The translations under genes and the position numbers were made by a program. From the NCBI GenBank assembly GCA_001799285.1, contig MGTD01000024.1, positions 1 to 61,708 on the forward strand: 61,708 nt of DNA. The letters run 5' to 3'. This document shows, one piece after another, positions 4,516-58,622 of this stretch; the first letter of the stretch is position 1, and each line of letters starts with the position of its first letter. The notes beneath the pieces were generated by a model, which made no database searches, was not told the DNA's origin, and worked only from the letters and a program-made list of their open reading frames with translations. This DNA is from Deltaproteobacteria bacterium RIFOXYD12_FULL_56_24. GTDB lineage: Bacteria > Desulfobacterota > Desulfobulbia > Desulfobulbales > Desulfurivibrionaceae.

Positions 4516-6267
4516 GGAAATCCTCTCGCTGATCCCCCGCCGGAGCACCTCTTTGTTATAGGCGGCGATGGCCTCGCGGCGCTTGAGCATTCCCACCACC
4601 CAGCGGTTGTCCTCCGCCTCCACCACCGGAATCTCCTCCAGCCCCTTGGTGTCAAAAAGAGCCATGGCGGTGTAGAGATTATCTTCCGGGGTGAGGACAA
4701 CGACCTTGCGGGTGCAAATATCCCCCACCCTGGCGGAAAGCCGCTGTTTCTCGTCATGCAGGATGCTTTTCACGTCCTGCAGCGAGACAACCCCGGTCAT
4801 CCTGCCGCTCTCATCGACCACCGGGAAATAAAAGCTGTCCTTGGCCAGGCTGAAGATTGTCAGCAACTGATCCACGTTGGCCTGTTCGCTGATAAAATCC
4901 ACTTCCTCGCTGATAACCTTGCCAACCTTGATGGATTTCATCACCGAAATCTCCCGGCCCTCATGGAGATCAATGCCGTCCCGGCTGAAATCCACGGTGT
5001 CGATGGAGTCCGGATTAAGACGGGCGGCAACCACTGTGCCGATGATGCTGGCGAGCATGATGGGGACGATGATGAGATAGTTGCCGGTCATCTCAAAAAG
5101 CAGAAAGATGGCGGTAAGTGGCGCATGGGTGGCGGCGGCGAGAAAAGCGCCGATCCCCACCGCCGCGTAGGCGCCGGGATTGGCGGTATACTGGGGCAAG
5201 AGGCTATGGGCTACGGAGCCAAAAGCTCCGCCGGTAACAGCGCCGATAAAAAGGGCGGGGGCGAACACCCCGCCCGCGCCGCCGGAACCCAAAGTAAGGG
5301 CGGTGGCCGTAATCTTGCAAAAAATCAGCACGGCCATCACCCAGAGTACCCCATGCCCCGCCAGCACCTCCTCCAGGTATTGATAACCGTCGCCCATGAT
5401 CTGGGGAAAACCGATGGCCAGCACGCCGAGAGCCAGGGCGCCGAGCAGAGGCTTAAGCTGCTGCGGCAAGCGAAGCGCGGCAAAACGGTCACGGATTGTA
5501 TAAAATACCTGGATGTGCAGCACCGCCACCAGTCCCATGAGTACGCCCATCAGCGAATAAAGCGGCATCTCTACCAGGGAGTTAACCATTTCGTAAGCCG
5601 GGATGGGAAAGGCCGGCGAGTCGCCATAATAGCCGCGGGAAACAACGGTAGCCATGGCCGAGGAAACCACCAGGGCGGCGAAGGAGCCGATTTCGTAGGT
5701 GCCCAGCAGGACGATCTCGGCGGCGAAAAAGACCCCGGCAATGGGGGCGTTGAACATGGCCGCCACCCCGCCCGCGCAACCGGCGGCGATAAAGACCTTC
5801 ATCCGGCTGCCGGAAACCCGGAAAAACTGACCGATCTGCGAGCCCACTGACCCTCCCACCTGGGCAATGGGCCCCTCGACCCCGGCTGAGCCGCCGGAGC
5901 CGATGGTCAGGGCGCAGGAAAGAATTTTAAGGGGAATGGTCCGCAGCCGGATGATCCCGCCCTCCAGGTTGACCTGGCGCAGGAATTTCGGGAAGCCGTA
6001 GCCGTTGATCTCGCCGGGAAAAAGCAGGGAAAGGGGGATGAGCAGCAGCATGCCGCAGAGGGGAATCAGCGGCAAAAGCAAAAGATACCACCCGCCCTTG
6101 GCCAGCCCCAACAGGGCGGAGCCGCCGACAAAAACAGTCTCATGGACCAGGGCAACGGTGGCGCGAAAGAGAATATTCGCCGCCCCGGCCAGCAGGCCGA
6201 TACCGGCGGCAATGGCTAGTACCCGGAAATTCTCGCCCGGCATGATTCTCCTGATCCTAGTCTTCAT
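4489..6267 (-). CDS. ClC-type chloride channel/antiporter with CBS pair
   Basis: The 592-residue membrane protein has the ClC signatures. GSGGSAGVEGP (about 122-132) corresponds to the GSGIP...GREGP selectivity filter with the gating glutamate retained. GSGGAGGVFAPALFIG (about 328-343) is the GKxFGPxxxxG-like region. The C-terminal third (about 440-580) is a pair of CBS domains that probably bind adenine nucleotides and control gating. It moves chloride or other small anions, by channel or proton-exchange mechanism. The start overlaps the stop of the dGTPase gene by four bases (ATGA). The last few codons come from a palindromic repeat, so the native C-terminus may have been altered. Confidence 0.92.
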   Translation of the reverse strand: MKTRIRRIMPGENFRVLAIAAGIGLLAGAANILFRATVALVHETVFVGGSALLGLAKGGWYLLLLPLIPLCGMLLLIPLSLLFPGEINGYGFPKFLRQVNLEGGIIRLRTIPLKILSCALTIGSGGSAGVEGPIAQVGGSVGSQIGQFFRVSGSRMKVFIAAGCAGGVAAMFNAPIAGVFFAAEIVLLGTYEIGSFAALVVSSAMATVVSRGYYGDSPAFPIPAYEMVNSLVEMPLYSLMGVLMGLVAVLHIQVFYTIRDRFAALRLPQQLKPLLGALALGVLAIGFPQIMGDGYQYLEEVLAGHGVLWVMAVLIFCKITATALTLGSGGAGGVFAPALFIGAVTGGAFGSVAHSLLPQYTANPGAYAAVGIGAFLAAATHAPLTAIFLLFEMTGNYLIIVPIMLASIIGTVVAARLNPDSIDTVDFSRDGIDLHEGREISVMKSIKVGKVISEEVDFISEQANVDQLLTIFSLAKDSFYFPVVDESGRMTGVVSLQDVKSILHDEKQRLSARVGDICTRKVVVLTPEDNLYTAMALFDTKGLEEIPVVEAEDNRWVVGMLKRREAIAAYNKEVLRRGISERISPSFPPSQA

Positions 6268-7427
6268 GCCTTCTCCGGGGTCTCACAGCCCAGTTGTCGT
6301 GCCTGGCGCAGAAAATACGCATCAGTCATCCCGGCGATAAAATCCCGCGTCATGACAACCGGCTGCCTCCCCTTGGGGTATTCCCCGCCCTGTTCCAGGA
6401 GAAAATTCTCATACAGTTCCGCCTGGGGCTGCTGCCTGGCAAACTGTTCAAGACAGGAAGCAAACAACACCCGGTAACAGTTGCTGATCCTGGCCAGCCC
6501 CTTCTTGATGGCCGGGTTCAGGTAGATGCGCTGGTAATTGAATTCCTTCAGCTCCCTCAGCCCCTCGGAAACCTCCTCGCTGAAGGCGATGGCCCCATCC
6601 TCAAGGCCGTTGCCGAGCAGATCAGTCACCAACCGATAGACCATGCTGCCATTGGTTCGGCCAAAGATTTCCTGACAGCGCACAGGGATATCCTCCCTGC
6701 GAATGAGCTTAAGTTCAATGGCATCCTCGATATCCCTGCCGATATAGGCAATGGTGTCGGCGAAACGAACCACGCACCCTTCCATGGTCATGGGGACCAG
6801 TTCCCCGGCAGGGTCAAGACCCTTGGCCGCGCCCTGCAGGTCGAAATCGGCAAAGGTCTTGCCGCGCTGGGGCGCAAGCATGCGGTTGTGGATCTCCCCG
6901 TCGTGGCACATGATGCCGTCCAGGGTTTGCAGGGTCAGGTTCCAGCCCCTCCCCTGCCGTTCGATGCGTTCCAAAAACTCGATGCTTTGCAGGTTGTGCT
7001 GGAACGACGGCAAGCCATGCTCACGGCAGAGGTTGTCGAGAATCTTTTCTCCATCGTGGCCAAACGGAGGATGGCCGATATCGTGGCCCAAGGCGATGGC
7101 CTCGATGAGATCCTCGTTCAGTCGCAGATAGCGGCCAATGGTCCGGCCAATCTTCGAAACCAGCTGCACATGCAAAACCCGGTGGGTGATATGGTCGTTT
7201 TTGACCAGGGAGAAGACCTGGGTTTTGTCGATATAGCGGGTATAGGCCCGGGAATGCAGAACCCGGTCTCCGTCCACGGCAAAGGGTTGGCGGTGGTCCT
7301 GCCCCTCCTCGGGGTGCCGCCTGATGCCTTCCCTGCTTAGGGTGGCAAGCGGCGACAACCGGTCGGCCTCAAGGGCGTCCAGCTGGTTTTTCAAGGCAAG
7401 TAAATGCGGCGTAGTCAGATGACGCAT
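6264..7427 (-). CDS. dgt: dGTPase-like HD-domain dNTP triphosphohydrolase
   Basis: This is a 387-residue HD-superfamily protein. Metal-binding residues are seen in the region VKNDHITHRVLHV and in HDIGHPPFGHDGE (about residue 115-127), the hallmark of dGTP triphosphohydrolase-like enzymes. RAYTRYIDKTQVF just before is also typical (the RRL..KTQV region). These enzymes cut dGTP, or dNTPs generally, to the nucleoside and tripolyphosphate. The length is that of the shorter, type 2 family. It is the first gene of a two-gene operon with the ClC gene and is divergent from the histone-deacetylase-like gene. Confidence 0.88.
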   Translation of the reverse strand: MRHLTTPHLLALKNQLDALEADRLSPLATLSREGIRRHPEEGQDHRQPFAVDGDRVLHSRAYTRYIDKTQVFSLVKNDHITHRVLHVQLVSKIGRTIGRYLRLNEDLIEAIALGHDIGHPPFGHDGEKILDNLCREHGLPSFQHNLQSIEFLERIERQGRGWNLTLQTLDGIMCHDGEIHNRMLAPQRGKTFADFDLQGAAKGLDPAGELVPMTMEGCVVRFADTIAYIGRDIEDAIELKLIRREDIPVRCQEIFGRTNGSMVYRLVTDLLGNGLEDGAIAFSEEVSEGLRELKEFNYQRIYLNPAIKKGLARISNCYRVLFASCLEQFARQQPQAELYENFLLEQGGEYPKGRQPVVMTRDFIAGMTDAYFLRQARQLGCETPEKA

Positions 7428-43452: not shown

Positions 43453-43536
43453 TGGTGCGAGAGGGGGGAGTCGAACCCCCATACCAAAGGCGCTGGTTCC
43501 TAAGACCAGTGCGTCTACCAATTCCGCCACTCTCGC
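43453..43536 (-). tRNA. tRNA-Leu (TAG)
   Basis: The 84-nt class II tRNA has acceptor stem GCGAGAG/CTCTCGC, anticodon loop CTTAGGA with anticodon TAG, a long variable arm, T-arm GGGGGTTCGACTCCCCC and encoded ACCA. It stands alone between tig and the cobalamin-riboswitch cassette. Confidence 0.97.
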
Positions 43537-43804: not shown

Positions 43805-43853
43805 TTTTATCCCACAAATTCTGTACAGCCCCACTTGACATGACGGGATAAAA
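43805..43853. repeat. Inverted repeat around the cassette promoter; direct repeat with 45677-45690
   Basis: TTTTATCCC (43805-43813) and GGGATAAAA (43845-43853) form an inverted repeat that flanks and overlaps the -35/-10 region. The longer form TTTTATCCCACAAA (43805-43818) recurs exactly at 45677-45690, right after the radical SAM gene. It could be an operator, or a boundary of an inserted cassette. Confidence 0.55.
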
Positions 43854-43863
43854 AGAGTTTATA
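43835..43863 (+). promoter_or_regulatory. Sigma-70 promoter of the riboswitch-peptide-radical SAM operon
   Basis: TTGACA (43835-43840, perfect) and TTTATA (43858-43863) are 17 bases apart; the start point would be near 43870, just before the riboswitch. Confidence 0.55.
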
Positions 43864-43876
43864 GAAAAAAAGAGCA

Positions 43877-44046
43877 AACATTTCATCATCCCGGAACACG
43901 GTGTAAATCCGTGGCGGTCCCGCCGCTGTAATCGGGGATGCTGGTCAGCACAGGGAATTTTCCCGGTCACTCCCAGAGCACACCACGGGGGGAAGGCCGC
44001 AGGCCAGCAGACGATCCGAAAGCCAGAAGACCTGGTGATAATGTTT
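43877..44046 (+). ncRNA. Cobalamin riboswitch
   Basis: The conserved blocks of the B12 aptamer appear in order: GTAAATCCGTGGCGGTCCC, CGCCGCTGTAA, GGTCACT, GGGGGGAAGGCC and the B12 box AAGCCAGAAGACCTGG. The ends (CATTTCATCA / TGGTGATAATG) pair to form P1. It responds to adenosyl- or methylcobalamin. Downstream is an intrinsic terminator (44086-44126), so it probably switches off transcription of the peptide and radical SAM genes when cobalamin is plentiful. Confidence 0.95.
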
Positions 44047-44085
44047 TCAAGCAGTGGTATCCGCTGGGTATTCTTATGGAAACCG

Positions 44086-44126
44086 AACCCGGAGCGCCCC
44101 CGAGGGGATTGCTCCGGGTTTTTTTA
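44086..44126 (+). terminator. Riboswitch-controlled intrinsic terminator
   Basis: AACCCGGAGC and GCTCCGGGTT pair perfectly, with an inner CCCC/GGGG stem, followed by a T-run. It lies between the aptamer and the peptide gene, the standard expression platform for transcriptional control. Confidence 0.85.
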
Positions 44127-44158
44127 TGCGCGCAGATCAACAATAAGAGGAGAACATC

Positions 44159-44287
44159 ATGAAAGCACAAAAACAGATCATTTCGTACCGTCGCCGCTGC
44201 AACCTGATCGGTCAGGGAACCGGCCTTTCCCACTACATTCTGCTCACCCCCAGCGCTGAGACTACCCCAGAGGACAAAAGCAAGTGA
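44159..44287 (+). CDS. cbpA: Putative modified-peptide precursor (CbpA type)
   Basis: This 42-residue frame has a strong ribosome-binding site (AGAGGAGA, five bases before ATG). Its sequence is a basic leader-like start (MKAQKQIISYRRR), a single Cys at 14, the Gly-rich segment LIGQGTGLSHYILL, and a polar acidic tail. Size, position directly before a radical SAM/SPASM enzyme and control by a cobalamin riboswitch match the peptide family named CbpA in protein-family collections, proposed to be a substrate of CbpB. The mature product and function are unknown. The next gene overlaps its end (GTGA), so both are made together. My assignment to CbpA rests on memory of the family, not on a search. 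Confidence 0.75.
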   Translation: MKAQKQIISYRRRCNLIGQGTGLSHYILLTPSAETTPEDKSK

Positions 44288-45675
44288 TGGAACAGACTCA
44301 AAAAAAAGCAGCGGCAATGTTCGCCAATACCGGGCAAGGCCCGAATTTTTCCGTGCTGGAGATCGGTGATCCCGACCGAGTTGCGGTTATCGAAGCGAAC
44401 ACGGCCTACTGGGCCCTGGTCGATCGTCATGATCTGCCCCAGGCTCTGGGGGGCGCCATGGTCGAAGACTTCCTGACCCGGGCTCCGGAATTTGCCACGG
44501 AAATGGCTCACCTGCGTTCCGGCCTGCAACTTTCCGCCGTCTATGTGAACCCCACCGAACGCTGCAACCTGAACTGCAGTTACTGCTACCTCCCCGAAGA
44601 AATGCGCAAAAACGGCATCGATATGGGAGAGGAAAAACTGATCCTCGCCCTTGAGCGGTTGCTGCAGCACTTCCGGAAGATCTTGCCGGAGGGGGTAAAA
44701 CCGCAGCTTATCTTCCACGGCAGCGAACCCATGGTTGCCCGGGAGGCAGTCTTTGCCGCAATTGCCCGTTTTAAGGACGACTTCCATTTCGGCATCCAGA
44801 CCAACGCCACCCTGCTCGACGACACGGCAATCAGTTTTTTAAGAGAACACCATGTCGGCATCGGCCTGTCCCTGGATGCCCCTACGGCTGAGGTCGCCAA
44901 CCGCACCAGGAAAAACTGGCAGGGCAACGGCTATTACGACACCGTGGTTTCGGTGATCAAAAAGCTCGTTGATTATCCGGCCCTCAATGTCATAACCACC
45001 GTAACCCAGGCCAACGTGCACACCCTGACCGAGATGGTAGATTTTTACCACGGACTGGGAGTGCGGGTGGTCATGCTCAATCCGGTACGCTGCACCCGTC
45101 AGGGGGGAATGGATCTAAAACCGGACAACCAGGTTCTCGCCGTTGCTTTCTTCAAGGCACTGGACCGGTCTTTTGCGCTTTTTGCACAAACCGGCAGAAA
45201 GCTGGTCATCGCCAATTTTGCCAATGTCCTGGCCGGAGTTATCGGCCCCACCGGTCGCAGGCTGATGTGCGACATCTCTCCTTGCGGCGGCGGCCGTTGT
45301 TTCTTCGCCGTTTCCGCAGACGGCGAGGTCGTGCCGTGCAGTGAGTTCATCGGCATGAACGAGTTTTCCGGCGGCAACATCTTTCGGGATAATCCTGCCG
45401 ATATTCTTGCCAGCAAACCCTTTCAGGAAGTGACAGACCGGAAGGTGGAAAAAATCCTGCCCTGCGCAGGCTGCGCCATCCGGCATTTCTGCGGGGCACC
45501 TTGCCCGGCCGAGATCTACAAGGTCTCAGGTGACATTAATGCGCCAAGCCCTTATTGTAGCTTTTTTGAGGAGCAGGTGCGTTATGCTTTCAGGACCATC
45601 GCCCAGCAACGGGAGGAGGCCTATCTTTGGGATAGCTGGCGGACCGAGACGGAAATGTCCTACTGCTGGAAATAA
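44284..45675 (+). CDS. cbpB: Peptide-modifying radical SAM/SPASM enzyme (CbpB type)
   Basis: The 463-residue enzyme has three parts. The N-terminal region (about 1-85) may act as a peptide-recognition region. The radical SAM core has PTERCNLNCSYCYLP (CX3CX2C at Cys94, 98 and 101) binding the SAM [4Fe-4S] cluster. A C-terminal SPASM region (about 340-440: CDISPCGGGRCFF, VVPCSEF, ILPCAGCAIRHFCGAPC, PYCSFF) is rich enough in cysteines for two further clusters. Enzymes of this plan make radical-based crosslinks or epimerisations in small peptides; the adjacent 42-residue peptide is the obvious substrate. Start: GTG at 44284 overlapping cbpA by four bases (GTGA), or ATG at 44287. It ends before a terminator. 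Confidence 0.9.
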   Translation: MMEQTQKKAAAMFANTGQGPNFSVLEIGDPDRVAVIEANTAYWALVDRHDLPQALGGAMVEDFLTRAPEFATEMAHLRSGLQLSAVYVNPTERCNLNCSYCYLPEEMRKNGIDMGEEKLILALERLLQHFRKILPEGVKPQLIFHGSEPMVAREAVFAAIARFKDDFHFGIQTNATLLDDTAISFLREHHVGIGLSLDAPTAEVANRTRKNWQGNGYYDTVVSVIKKLVDYPALNVITTVTQANVHTLTEMVDFYHGLGVRVVMLNPVRCTRQGGMDLKPDNQVLAVAFFKALDRSFALFAQTGRKLVIANFANVLAGVIGPTGRRLMCDISPCGGGRCFFAVSADGEVVPCSEFIGMNEFSGGNIFRDNPADILASKPFQEVTDRKVEKILPCAGCAIRHFCGAPCPAEIYKVSGDINAPSPYCSFFEEQVRYAFRTIAQQREEAYLWDSWRTETEMSYCWK

Positions 45676-45690
45676 CTTTTATCCCACAAA

Positions 45691-45723
45691 AACCAGCCGG
45701 GGCTAATCCCCGGCTGGTTTTTT
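45691..45723 (+). terminator. Intrinsic terminator of the cbpAB operon
   Basis: AACCAGCCGGGG, loop CTAAT, CCCCGGCTGGTT, then T-run. It closes the operon, so the FMN reductase further on is transcribed separately. Confidence 0.92.
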
Positions 45724-45838
45724 CTTGAAATCCTTCCTGTCCCTGCCAATCTCGATTACAATATCATGGCACACCTGACTGCGACATAACTGGTAAGCGT
45801 TCACCAGGAACGAAAAAACGCGGCTCAGCCCCTGAACT

Positions 45839-45945
45839 GTAAACATTCAGCAGTGCCGCAGATGCTAGGAAGAGGCCTGCAATGTGTGCAAGTCGCACAT
45901 GAGCAGGCCGATGACACCGCAGATGCGGTGCTGCTGAACGTTTAC
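45839..45945. repeat. Structured hairpin repeat, type A copy 1
   Basis: Outer stem GTAAACATTCAGCAG / CTGCTGAACGTTTAC (14 of 15 pairs). Inside: CCGCAGATGC, an arm GGCCTGC (45874-45880) / GCAGGCC (45903-45909) with inner GTGTGC/GCACAT, then GATGAC and GCAGATGC. It lies in the 303-bp gap between cbpB and the FMN reductase gene, most of which is accounted for by this element and the terminator. Other copies: 46614-46763 and 58515-58622. Confidence 0.85.
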
Positions 45946-45978
45946 CATAGCTGAATAAAATCACCTGAGGAGGATACC

Positions 45979-46613: not shown

Positions 46614-46763
46614 GGGAGCTGCTCTGCAGCGCCGCTTCGCTGCTGCCACAGATGCGTATTTCTGAAGGGGCATAAACTCCAGAGGTCTGCGATCTGAGCT
46701 GTTGCACACGAACAGGCCGAGGACAAAGCAGATGTGGTGCTGTAGAGCAGTAGAGCAGCTACC
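46614..46763. repeat. Structured hairpin repeat, type A copy 2 (diverged)
   Basis: Outer stem GGGAGCTGCTCT / AGAGCAGCTACC (11 of 12). Inside are GCCACAGATGC, ACAGGCCGAGGACAAAGCAG and GATGTGGTGC, shared with the other type A copies; the first arm is changed and longer. It lies between the convergent FMN reductase and recO genes, ending one base before the recO stop. Confidence 0.7.
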
Positions 46764-58514: not shown

Positions 58515-58622
58515 TGTAACCGTTCAGGAGCGCCGCAGATGCGCGGAAGAGGCCGGCGAAGTGTGCTGGTGCACATAAGCCGGCCGATGACAAAGCAGAT
58601 GCCGTGCTCCTGGACGGTTACA
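58515..58622. repeat. Structured hairpin repeat, type A copy 3
   Basis: Outer stem TGTAACCGTTCAGGAGC / GCTCCTGGACGGTTACA (16 of 17, the exception a G-T pair). Inner arm GGCCGGC (58551-58557) / GCCGGCC (58579-58585) and GTGTGC/GCACAT. Compared with copy 1 the middle pair of the arm changes on both sides. It lies between lysS and lolC, 5 bp after the lysS stop. Confidence 0.87.

Follow-up and report, generated by a model that had tools for sequence, protein, structure and literature searches.

What does a cell gain by placing a tiny peptide gene and a radical S-adenosylmethionine (SAM) enzyme together behind a cobalamin riboswitch? The question is raised by a locus in a 61,708-nucleotide stretch of DNA, here called the window, from Deltaproteobacteria bacterium RIFOXYD12_FULL_56_24 (Desulfurivibrionaceae; GenBank assembly GCA_001799285.1, contig MGTD01000024.1, positions 1 to 61,708 of the forward strand). 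Positions 43835-45722 (+) hold a single cassette, in which a cobalamin riboswitch and a terminator precede a gene for a 42-amino-acid peptide and an overlapping radical SAM/SPASM gene. The pair is a member of a system already named in NCBI models, CbpA/CbpB, on which we found no publication in the open literature (subscription journals lay mostly outside the scope of the search). The new evidence presented here favors placing this system in cobamide acquisition or assembly. We consider it fairly probable that the cassette is a cobamide-responsive ribosomal-peptide system, with a CbpB-modified product that serves cobamide acquisition and assembly. Its parts are as follows.

43835-43865 (+): probable sigma-70 promoter, with TTGACA at 43835-43840 and a weak -10 element at about 43858-43865
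43893-44031 (+): cobalamin riboswitch aptamer with B12 box (RF00174, 66.5 bits, E = 3.2e-14)
44085-44125 (+): terminator hairpin and U-run, the regulatory switch between aptamer and cbpA (-27.3 kcal/mol)
44159-44287 (+): cbpA-like precursor peptide gene, 42 amino acids, core YRRRC-NLIGQGT-GLSHY (TIGR04164, 25.8 bits)
44287-45675 (+): cbpB, predicted radical SAM/SPASM peptide maturase with a putative RRE-like N-terminal domain, 462 amino acids (TIGR04163, 666 bits)
45688-45722 (+): closing intrinsic terminator (-27.2 kcal/mol)

An initial annotation, made from the sequence alone, had proposed this cassette, and its parts are borne out: the aptamer, the terminator, the 42-residue peptide with a single Cys, the overlapping radical SAM/SPASM gene, and the closing terminator are all in place, and the cbpB ATG at 44287 shares one base with the peptide stop TGA (TGATG). 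The annotation had also named the pair CbpA and CbpB and suggested a check against the family models. For the enzyme the name holds, with 666 bits against a cut-off of 375 for TIGR04163 (CbpB, “rSAM_cobopep”). Both the Radical_SAM and the SPASM domain are matched, and C93-x3-C97-x2-C100 and the SPASM cysteines C351, C393, C396, C402, C406, and C424 are invariant in 24 and in 48 sequences. The peptide is a different case: its sole NCBIfam match is TIGR04164, at E = 5.2e-6, and we call it CbpA-like because its 25.8 bits fall below the model cut-off of 35.

How well is such a short peptide conserved? The window peptide carries the CbpA core, a Cys followed by GL[STA]H[YF], directly upstream of cbpB. 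An intact form of this core, C-x(4-7)-GL-[STA]-H-[YF], precedes cbpB at 117 of the 121 loci inspected, which comprise 43 from the window's phylum, 58 from a named set, and 20 from archaea, of which at least four lie in both of two sets (L052 = L019, L053 = L015, L061 = L046, and L107 = L047), so that at most 117 are distinct. Its conservation upstream of cbpB across many bacterial phyla and archaea is a new observation, which rules out chance similarity and answers the question, left by the initial annotation, of whether the peptide frame is conserved in related loci. The named set came from a search of genome contigs: of the best 80 matches listed, 58 (46-91% identity) were taken as CbpB as a group rather than on individual scores against TIGR04163, and the other 22 served as controls. 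Among the cultured organisms that carry the pair are Rhodoblastus acidophilus, Magnetospirillum fulvum, and a Dechloromonas strain. Only four loci lack an intact core: L068 and L103 start at a contig end, L056 has none, and in the archaeal L173 the core is split between two reading frames, by either a sequencing error or decay of the gene.

In an alignment of 42 sequences, the Cys, Gly, Leu, and His are invariant, and the R at Cys-3 and the Y after His are nearly so. The search pattern itself fixes C, G, L/I, H, and Y/F, which are thus invariant by construction in the pattern-based set; it skipped long open frames at L014, L072, L080, L098, and L104, whose peptides were identified separately. 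The spacing from Cys to GL ranges from 4 to 7 residues (7 in the window, most commonly 5), and 102 of 112 peptides have one Cys only. The GQGTG segment that the initial annotation had picked out is present in the window peptide, but the conserved part is instead the Cys plus GL[STA]H[YF]. Each of the 42 homologous peptides sampled has TIGR04164 as its one NCBIfam match (E up to 0.01); among ten scored singly, six, all bacterial, lie above its cut-off, with one bacterial and three archaeal peptides below. Some archaeal peptides are as short as 25-27 amino acids and one has 19 (start codons assigned by us), which leaves almost no separate leader and makes the distant processing or export genes that had been expected doubtful.

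The layout of the switch can be read directly from the DNA. The aptamer lies far above the RF00174 gathering score of 31.5 bits and contains the B12 box. In the expression platform behind it, a hairpin at 44085-44121 (-27.3 kcal/mol, z = -4.0) runs into seven U residues at 44119-44125, with the earliest of them still base-paired. A strict terminator stands between aptamer and peptide at 38 of 39 related riboswitch loci, compared with 2 of 390 shuffles. The switch therefore most likely works by transcription termination, in line with the control that had been proposed. Cobalamin binding and transcriptional switching are predicted from this aptamer-plus-terminator arrangement, and by analogy with known cobalamin riboswitches, cobamide would turn the switch off, with expression when it is scarce. 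The proposed sigma-70 promoter is probable: TTGACA can be read in the sequence, but the -10 element is weak and a consensus promoter scan listed no promoter at the cassette. When -35 hexamers upstream of the aptamer were scored, a perfect TTGACA came out best in 32 of 39 related loci, a count somewhat inflated by choosing the best hexamer pair within about 130 bases.

Is the riboswitch always there? In the window's phylum it is nearly so, with RF00174 above its gathering score at 40 of 43 cbpB loci. The exceptions are L018, in which a run of N interrupts the aptamer, and L026 and L027, which lie directly behind cbiC in a cob operon. A riboswitch model built from the window-phylum loci (R1) places an aptamer just upstream of the pair in 44 of the 57 named loci scanned (the incomplete L103 was left out); Rfam found no cobalamin riboswitch in the remaining 13. 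The R1 model found no aptamer in 42 control and archaeal loci, the 20 archaeal ones among them. The riboswitch, whose constant presence the initial annotation had asked about, thus accompanies most of the bacterial loci scanned and, by R1, none of the 20 archaeal ones. Low-score Rfam matches such as mir-2070 were taken as chance.

What do the loci without a switch have in its place? Neighbor clustering and family scans of representatives identified CobD, CobT, CbiB, CobB/CbiA, BtuR, CobS, and CbiL, as well as BtuF-, BtuC-, and BtuB-like proteins, around the pair. Of the 58 named loci, 20 have one or more core cobamide genes within roughly 6 kb, compared with 1 of 22 other radical SAM loci (p = 0.009). 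The 20 comprise 19 from neighbor queries, partly drawn from the same named loci, plus L069, in which a partial query had missed CobT, and they are a lower bound because 25 of the 58 loci have less than 5 kb on one side. The one control locus with such a gene, L110 (a Methanomicrobia contig), has CbiB, CobD, CobS, and CbiZ nearby. It is not a true negative, because at about 5859-6558 it carries an intact CbpA-like peptide beside a decayed CbpB that lacks an internal stretch and the C-terminal half. Cobamide genes are near 10 of 13 switchless named loci compared with 10 of 44 with a switch (p = 6e-4); with the salvage clade described below counted once, the switchless figure is 6 of 9 (p = 0.016). 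In most cases, then, the pair is either equipped with a cobalamin switch of its own or located among cobamide genes.

The two operons of L026 and L027 illustrate the second arrangement. In one, the order is cobU, cobT, cobS, cobD/cbiB, cbiA, cbiC, cbpA, cbpB, cbiX, cbiM, cbiQ, cbiD, cbiE, and the other is similar, with btuR and a btuB-like gene in addition; CbiC is confirmed by PF02570, and the other labels are provisional ones based on sequence similarity. At L057, L067, L068, L081, and L105, cbpB (with cbpA where the contig permits) is part of a salvage cluster that includes btuF- and btuC-like genes. All five also hold a Dph6-like gene and four an Asn-synthase-like gene; where these two adjoin cbpAB together (L057, L067, L081, and L105), they are possible unrecognized salvage enzymes. 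A MoaA-like radical SAM enzyme, also found beside cbpAB in L067 and L081, may be another. Directly after cbpB stand bluB in L080 (7314-8033; TIGR02476, 243.8 bits) and cobT in L069, and another bluB occurs at the start of L089. Single-linkage clustering had grouped the L080 and L089 genes as cobT, probably by way of a longer L072 protein; Pfam and NCBIfam give BluB.

The pair extends into archaea. CbpB matches with an E value of 1e-90 or lower occur in 37 of the 246 genomes in the phylum to which L110 belongs, and 20 of these 37 loci were read. All seven archaeal CbpB that were checked score above the TIGR04163 cut-off (467-556 bits), and the 20 loci form one clade with support of 100/100 in a CbpB tree from which rows with stops or too short were left out. 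The peptide is intact at 19 of 20. The cobamide link here is one of neighbors: cobT lies directly behind cbpB at four of the 20 loci (CobT confirmed for L169), and cbi-like genes lie near L171; the queries used found no cobamide gene near the other 15. By clustering, six loci (L168-L172 and L176) share a divergent gene upstream of cbpA. The one that was scanned combines an RHH DNA-binding part with a weak match to AIRS (AIR synthase) that stays under the cut-off, and it is possible that this gene encodes a regulator sensing a cobamide precursor.

Do organisms with the pair make cobamides, or do they salvage them? Within the window's phylum, the corrin-ring marker CbiC occurs in 32 of 33 genomes with CbpB, compared with 25 of 47 without it (p = 1e-5), in counts that ignore relatedness and with the 47 picked by serial number plus six relatives rather than by formal draw. 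The 33 are from 36 CbpB genomes; G150 and G186 were left out, and the window's own genome, G000, was tested apart. With G000 added, the figure is 32 of 34 (p = 5e-5). CobS is less strongly enriched, with 32 of 33 compared with 37 of 47 (p = 0.02), again ignoring relatedness.

The window's genome itself (a draft of 67 contigs, 95% complete) and its sister G052 (99%) show no CbiC and no CbiL above cut-off; CobS is present in both. In the window's genome, CobT is adjacent to CobS, and the one further cobalamin riboswitch is followed by a BtuB-like receptor gene, a BtuF-CbiZ fusion (L134, 13416-15422 (-)), TonB, CbiA, and BtuF- and BtuC-like genes. With no CbiC and no above-cut-off CbiL found but with CobS, CobT, and CbiZ present, this organism looks like a cobamide salvager. 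In the salvage clade of the named set, CbiC was not found in five of five genomes and CobS was found in all five. Across the named set, CbiC was not found in 16 of 50 CbpB genomes, most of them metagenome assemblies that may be incomplete (of the 58 loci, L052, L053, L103, L107, L063, L071, L078, and L108 were left out). Since the pair occurs both in genomes with CbiC and in apparent salvagers in which CbiC was not found, a shared step between uptake and finished cobamide fits better than a step in making the corrin ring or inserting cobalt.

The window's genus gives a closer view. The cassette is a stand-alone unit, with a tRNA gene (43456-43536) and trigger factor upstream and an FMN-reductase-family gene, RecO, and a RodZ-like gene downstream. 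CbpB is found in 11 of 17 genomes of the genus, in all four combinations with CbiC: both in G045 and G064, CbpB only in G000 and G052, CbiC only in G095, and neither in G059. Strict coupling to de novo corrin synthesis is thereby rejected. Among the six CbpB-negative sisters, the site between the tRNA and the FMN-reductase gene holds a decayed cbpB in G132, G110, and G059 (pieces at L188, L189, and L191) and no match to the cassette in G095, G135, and G126 (over two contigs in G126). From these remnants, the cassette is probably ancestral in the genus and has been lost repeatedly, as would befit something useful but dispensable. A separate feature of the region is an intergenic repeat at 45835-45950 with a strong fold (z = -6.5). 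With related copies at 46681-46741 and 58536-58608 (the window contains at least three) and further matches in L013, L016, and L191, it appears to be a dispersed structured element.

How might the system work? When cobamide is plentiful, the aptamer would permit the terminator to form and the genes would be off; when it is short, the cell would make CbpA and CbpB. CbpB would then grip CbpA through its putative RRE-like N-terminal domain and the residues around the Cys. In an AlphaFold2 model of the whole protein (mean predicted local distance difference test, 89; predicted template modeling score, 0.89), the predicted N-terminal elements run E22-24, E31-36, E41-46, H47-55, and H57-78, an order like that of an RRE (beta-beta-beta-alpha-alpha). 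The predicted CbpB fold resembles that of CteB, a thioether maturase and the closest structure to the model (PDB 5why and 5wgg; Z = 34.7 over 378 residues, 22% identity), with an alignment that runs from CbpB residue 19 through the radical SAM and SPASM parts. CteB is also the best solved relative of CbpB by sequence (E = 8.7e-22), and no solved CbpB structure is among the nearest PDB chains listed, which does not preclude one. From sequence and predicted fold, we infer that CbpB modifies CbpA by radical SAM chemistry. The modification would most likely be a thioether or other cross-link from the invariant Cys to GL[STA]H[YF]; a thioether seems most likely given the CteB-like fold and the invariant Cys. 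The product would remain intracellular, its leader scarcely trimmed if at all, and would act at a step common to salvagers and producers, such as uptake, side-chain remodeling, lower-ligand attachment, or corrinoid transfer. More specifically, we would guess at a small peptide that handles corrinoids, its invariant His meeting the cobalt. It is tempting to go further and see CbpA as the founder of a B12-dedicated class of ribosomal peptides, short, modified, shared by bacteria and archaea, nearly leaderless in archaea, and binding or transferring corrinoids through His on cobalt while cobamides are salvaged and assembled, but this we put forward only tentatively, as a possibility with the odds against it.

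Several observations weigh against a role in cobamide acquisition and assembly. The CbiC enrichment, taken alone, would suggest de novo synthesis, and because the window's genome is a draft, a gene that seems absent may simply fall in an assembly gap. At 38 of 58 named loci there is no core cobamide gene nearby, and the link there rests on the riboswitch; L056, L077, and L084 have neither a riboswitch nor cobamide genes that we could find nearby. Near the L056 CbpB (Thermodesulfobacteriaceae), no CbpA-like open reading frame was found either. The five salvage clusters span at least three phyla yet form one clade and so count as one event. In addition, the cassette has been lost in sisters that keep CobS (G059 and G095), so it is dispensable.

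Which other functions could explain these data? The invariant Cys and His are good cobalt ligands, and the mature peptide could be a cobalt chaperone or a cobalt-capturing metallophore for corrin synthesis. This would suit the near-universal CbiC in CbpB genomes of the phylum, as well as the two operons in which cbpAB lie between cbiC and genes provisionally labeled cbiX and cbiM (cobaltochelatase and cobalt transport). However, the pair is kept where CbiC and above-cut-off CbiL were not found, the window's genome included, and among the 58 named loci the pair is not consistently accompanied by an exporter in a fixed position. We therefore do not favor cobalt capture, which the initial annotation had raised, and regard it as unlikely. 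Slightly better placed, though still rather unlikely, is a service to the lower ligand, in which the product itself forms the base or alpha-ribazole used by CobT, or else delivers or regulates it. The archaeal cobT neighbors and the divergent gene with RHH and weakly AIRS-like parts suit this idea, as do cobT in L069 and bluB in L080, but most loci have neither cobT nor bluB nearby. Where bluB (L080) or a putative ThiC/BzaF-like gene (L136) adjoins the pair, the base already has a known route.

Two further explanations move the product away from cobamide itself. Cobalamin riboswitches also control B12-independent isozymes, and pyrroloquinoline quinone and mycofactocin are peptide-derived cofactors made with SPASM enzymes; the product might thus be a cofactor or regulator for a B12-independent bypass when cobamide is missing. 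The named recurring neighbors are mainly genes for cobamide synthesis and uptake, not bypass enzymes, which makes this quite improbable. Least probable is that B12 controls a secreted peptide acting as a signal or antimicrobial, and we would be surprised if this proved correct. Many SPASM maturases serve secreted peptides, and transporter genes do occur in the vicinity, RND pumps at 4 of 58 loci and ABC ATPases at 13 of 58. Yet the position of these transporters varies, btuC-like genes adjoin at least four of the ABC ATPases, and no protease or immunity gene is among the named recurring neighbors. The core is also strongly conserved over phyla and archaea, unlike that of typical antimicrobial peptides. 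The signaling role suggested earlier is likewise not favored, given that exporters show no fixed position relative to the pair. If the role in cobamide acquisition and assembly is correct, B12 metabolism would gain a new component, a peptide linked to cobamide supply in both bacteria and archaea. Its short conserved core contains one Cys and one His, so that chemistry and binding alike can be tested directly.

How does the cassette compare with known systems? Elsewhere, RF00174 governs cob, btu, or B12-independent enzyme genes, whereas in the window it governs a peptide and its maturase. The enzyme is predicted to share the CteB fold, but the window peptide, having one Cys, is not a SCIFF peptide, and membership among SCIFF/ranthipeptide maturases is rejected by scores of 107.1 bits for TIGR03974 (cut-off, 425) and 133.3 bits for NF047865 (cut-off, 340). 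PapB, QhpD, and DynA, maturases with thioether or cross-link chemistry, are the next NCBIfam relatives at 133-137 bits, far under their cut-offs, and act on other peptides in other contexts; membership in the PapB class is rejected on its score. For PapB, thioether or cross-link chemistry is reported in PMC9413430. The closest counterpart is the CbpB/CbpA (“cobo_pep”) system of NCBIfam, with which the window shares the enzyme family, the peptide core, and its position; the window peptide differs in its sub-cut-off score and in the longer spacing between Cys and GLSHY.

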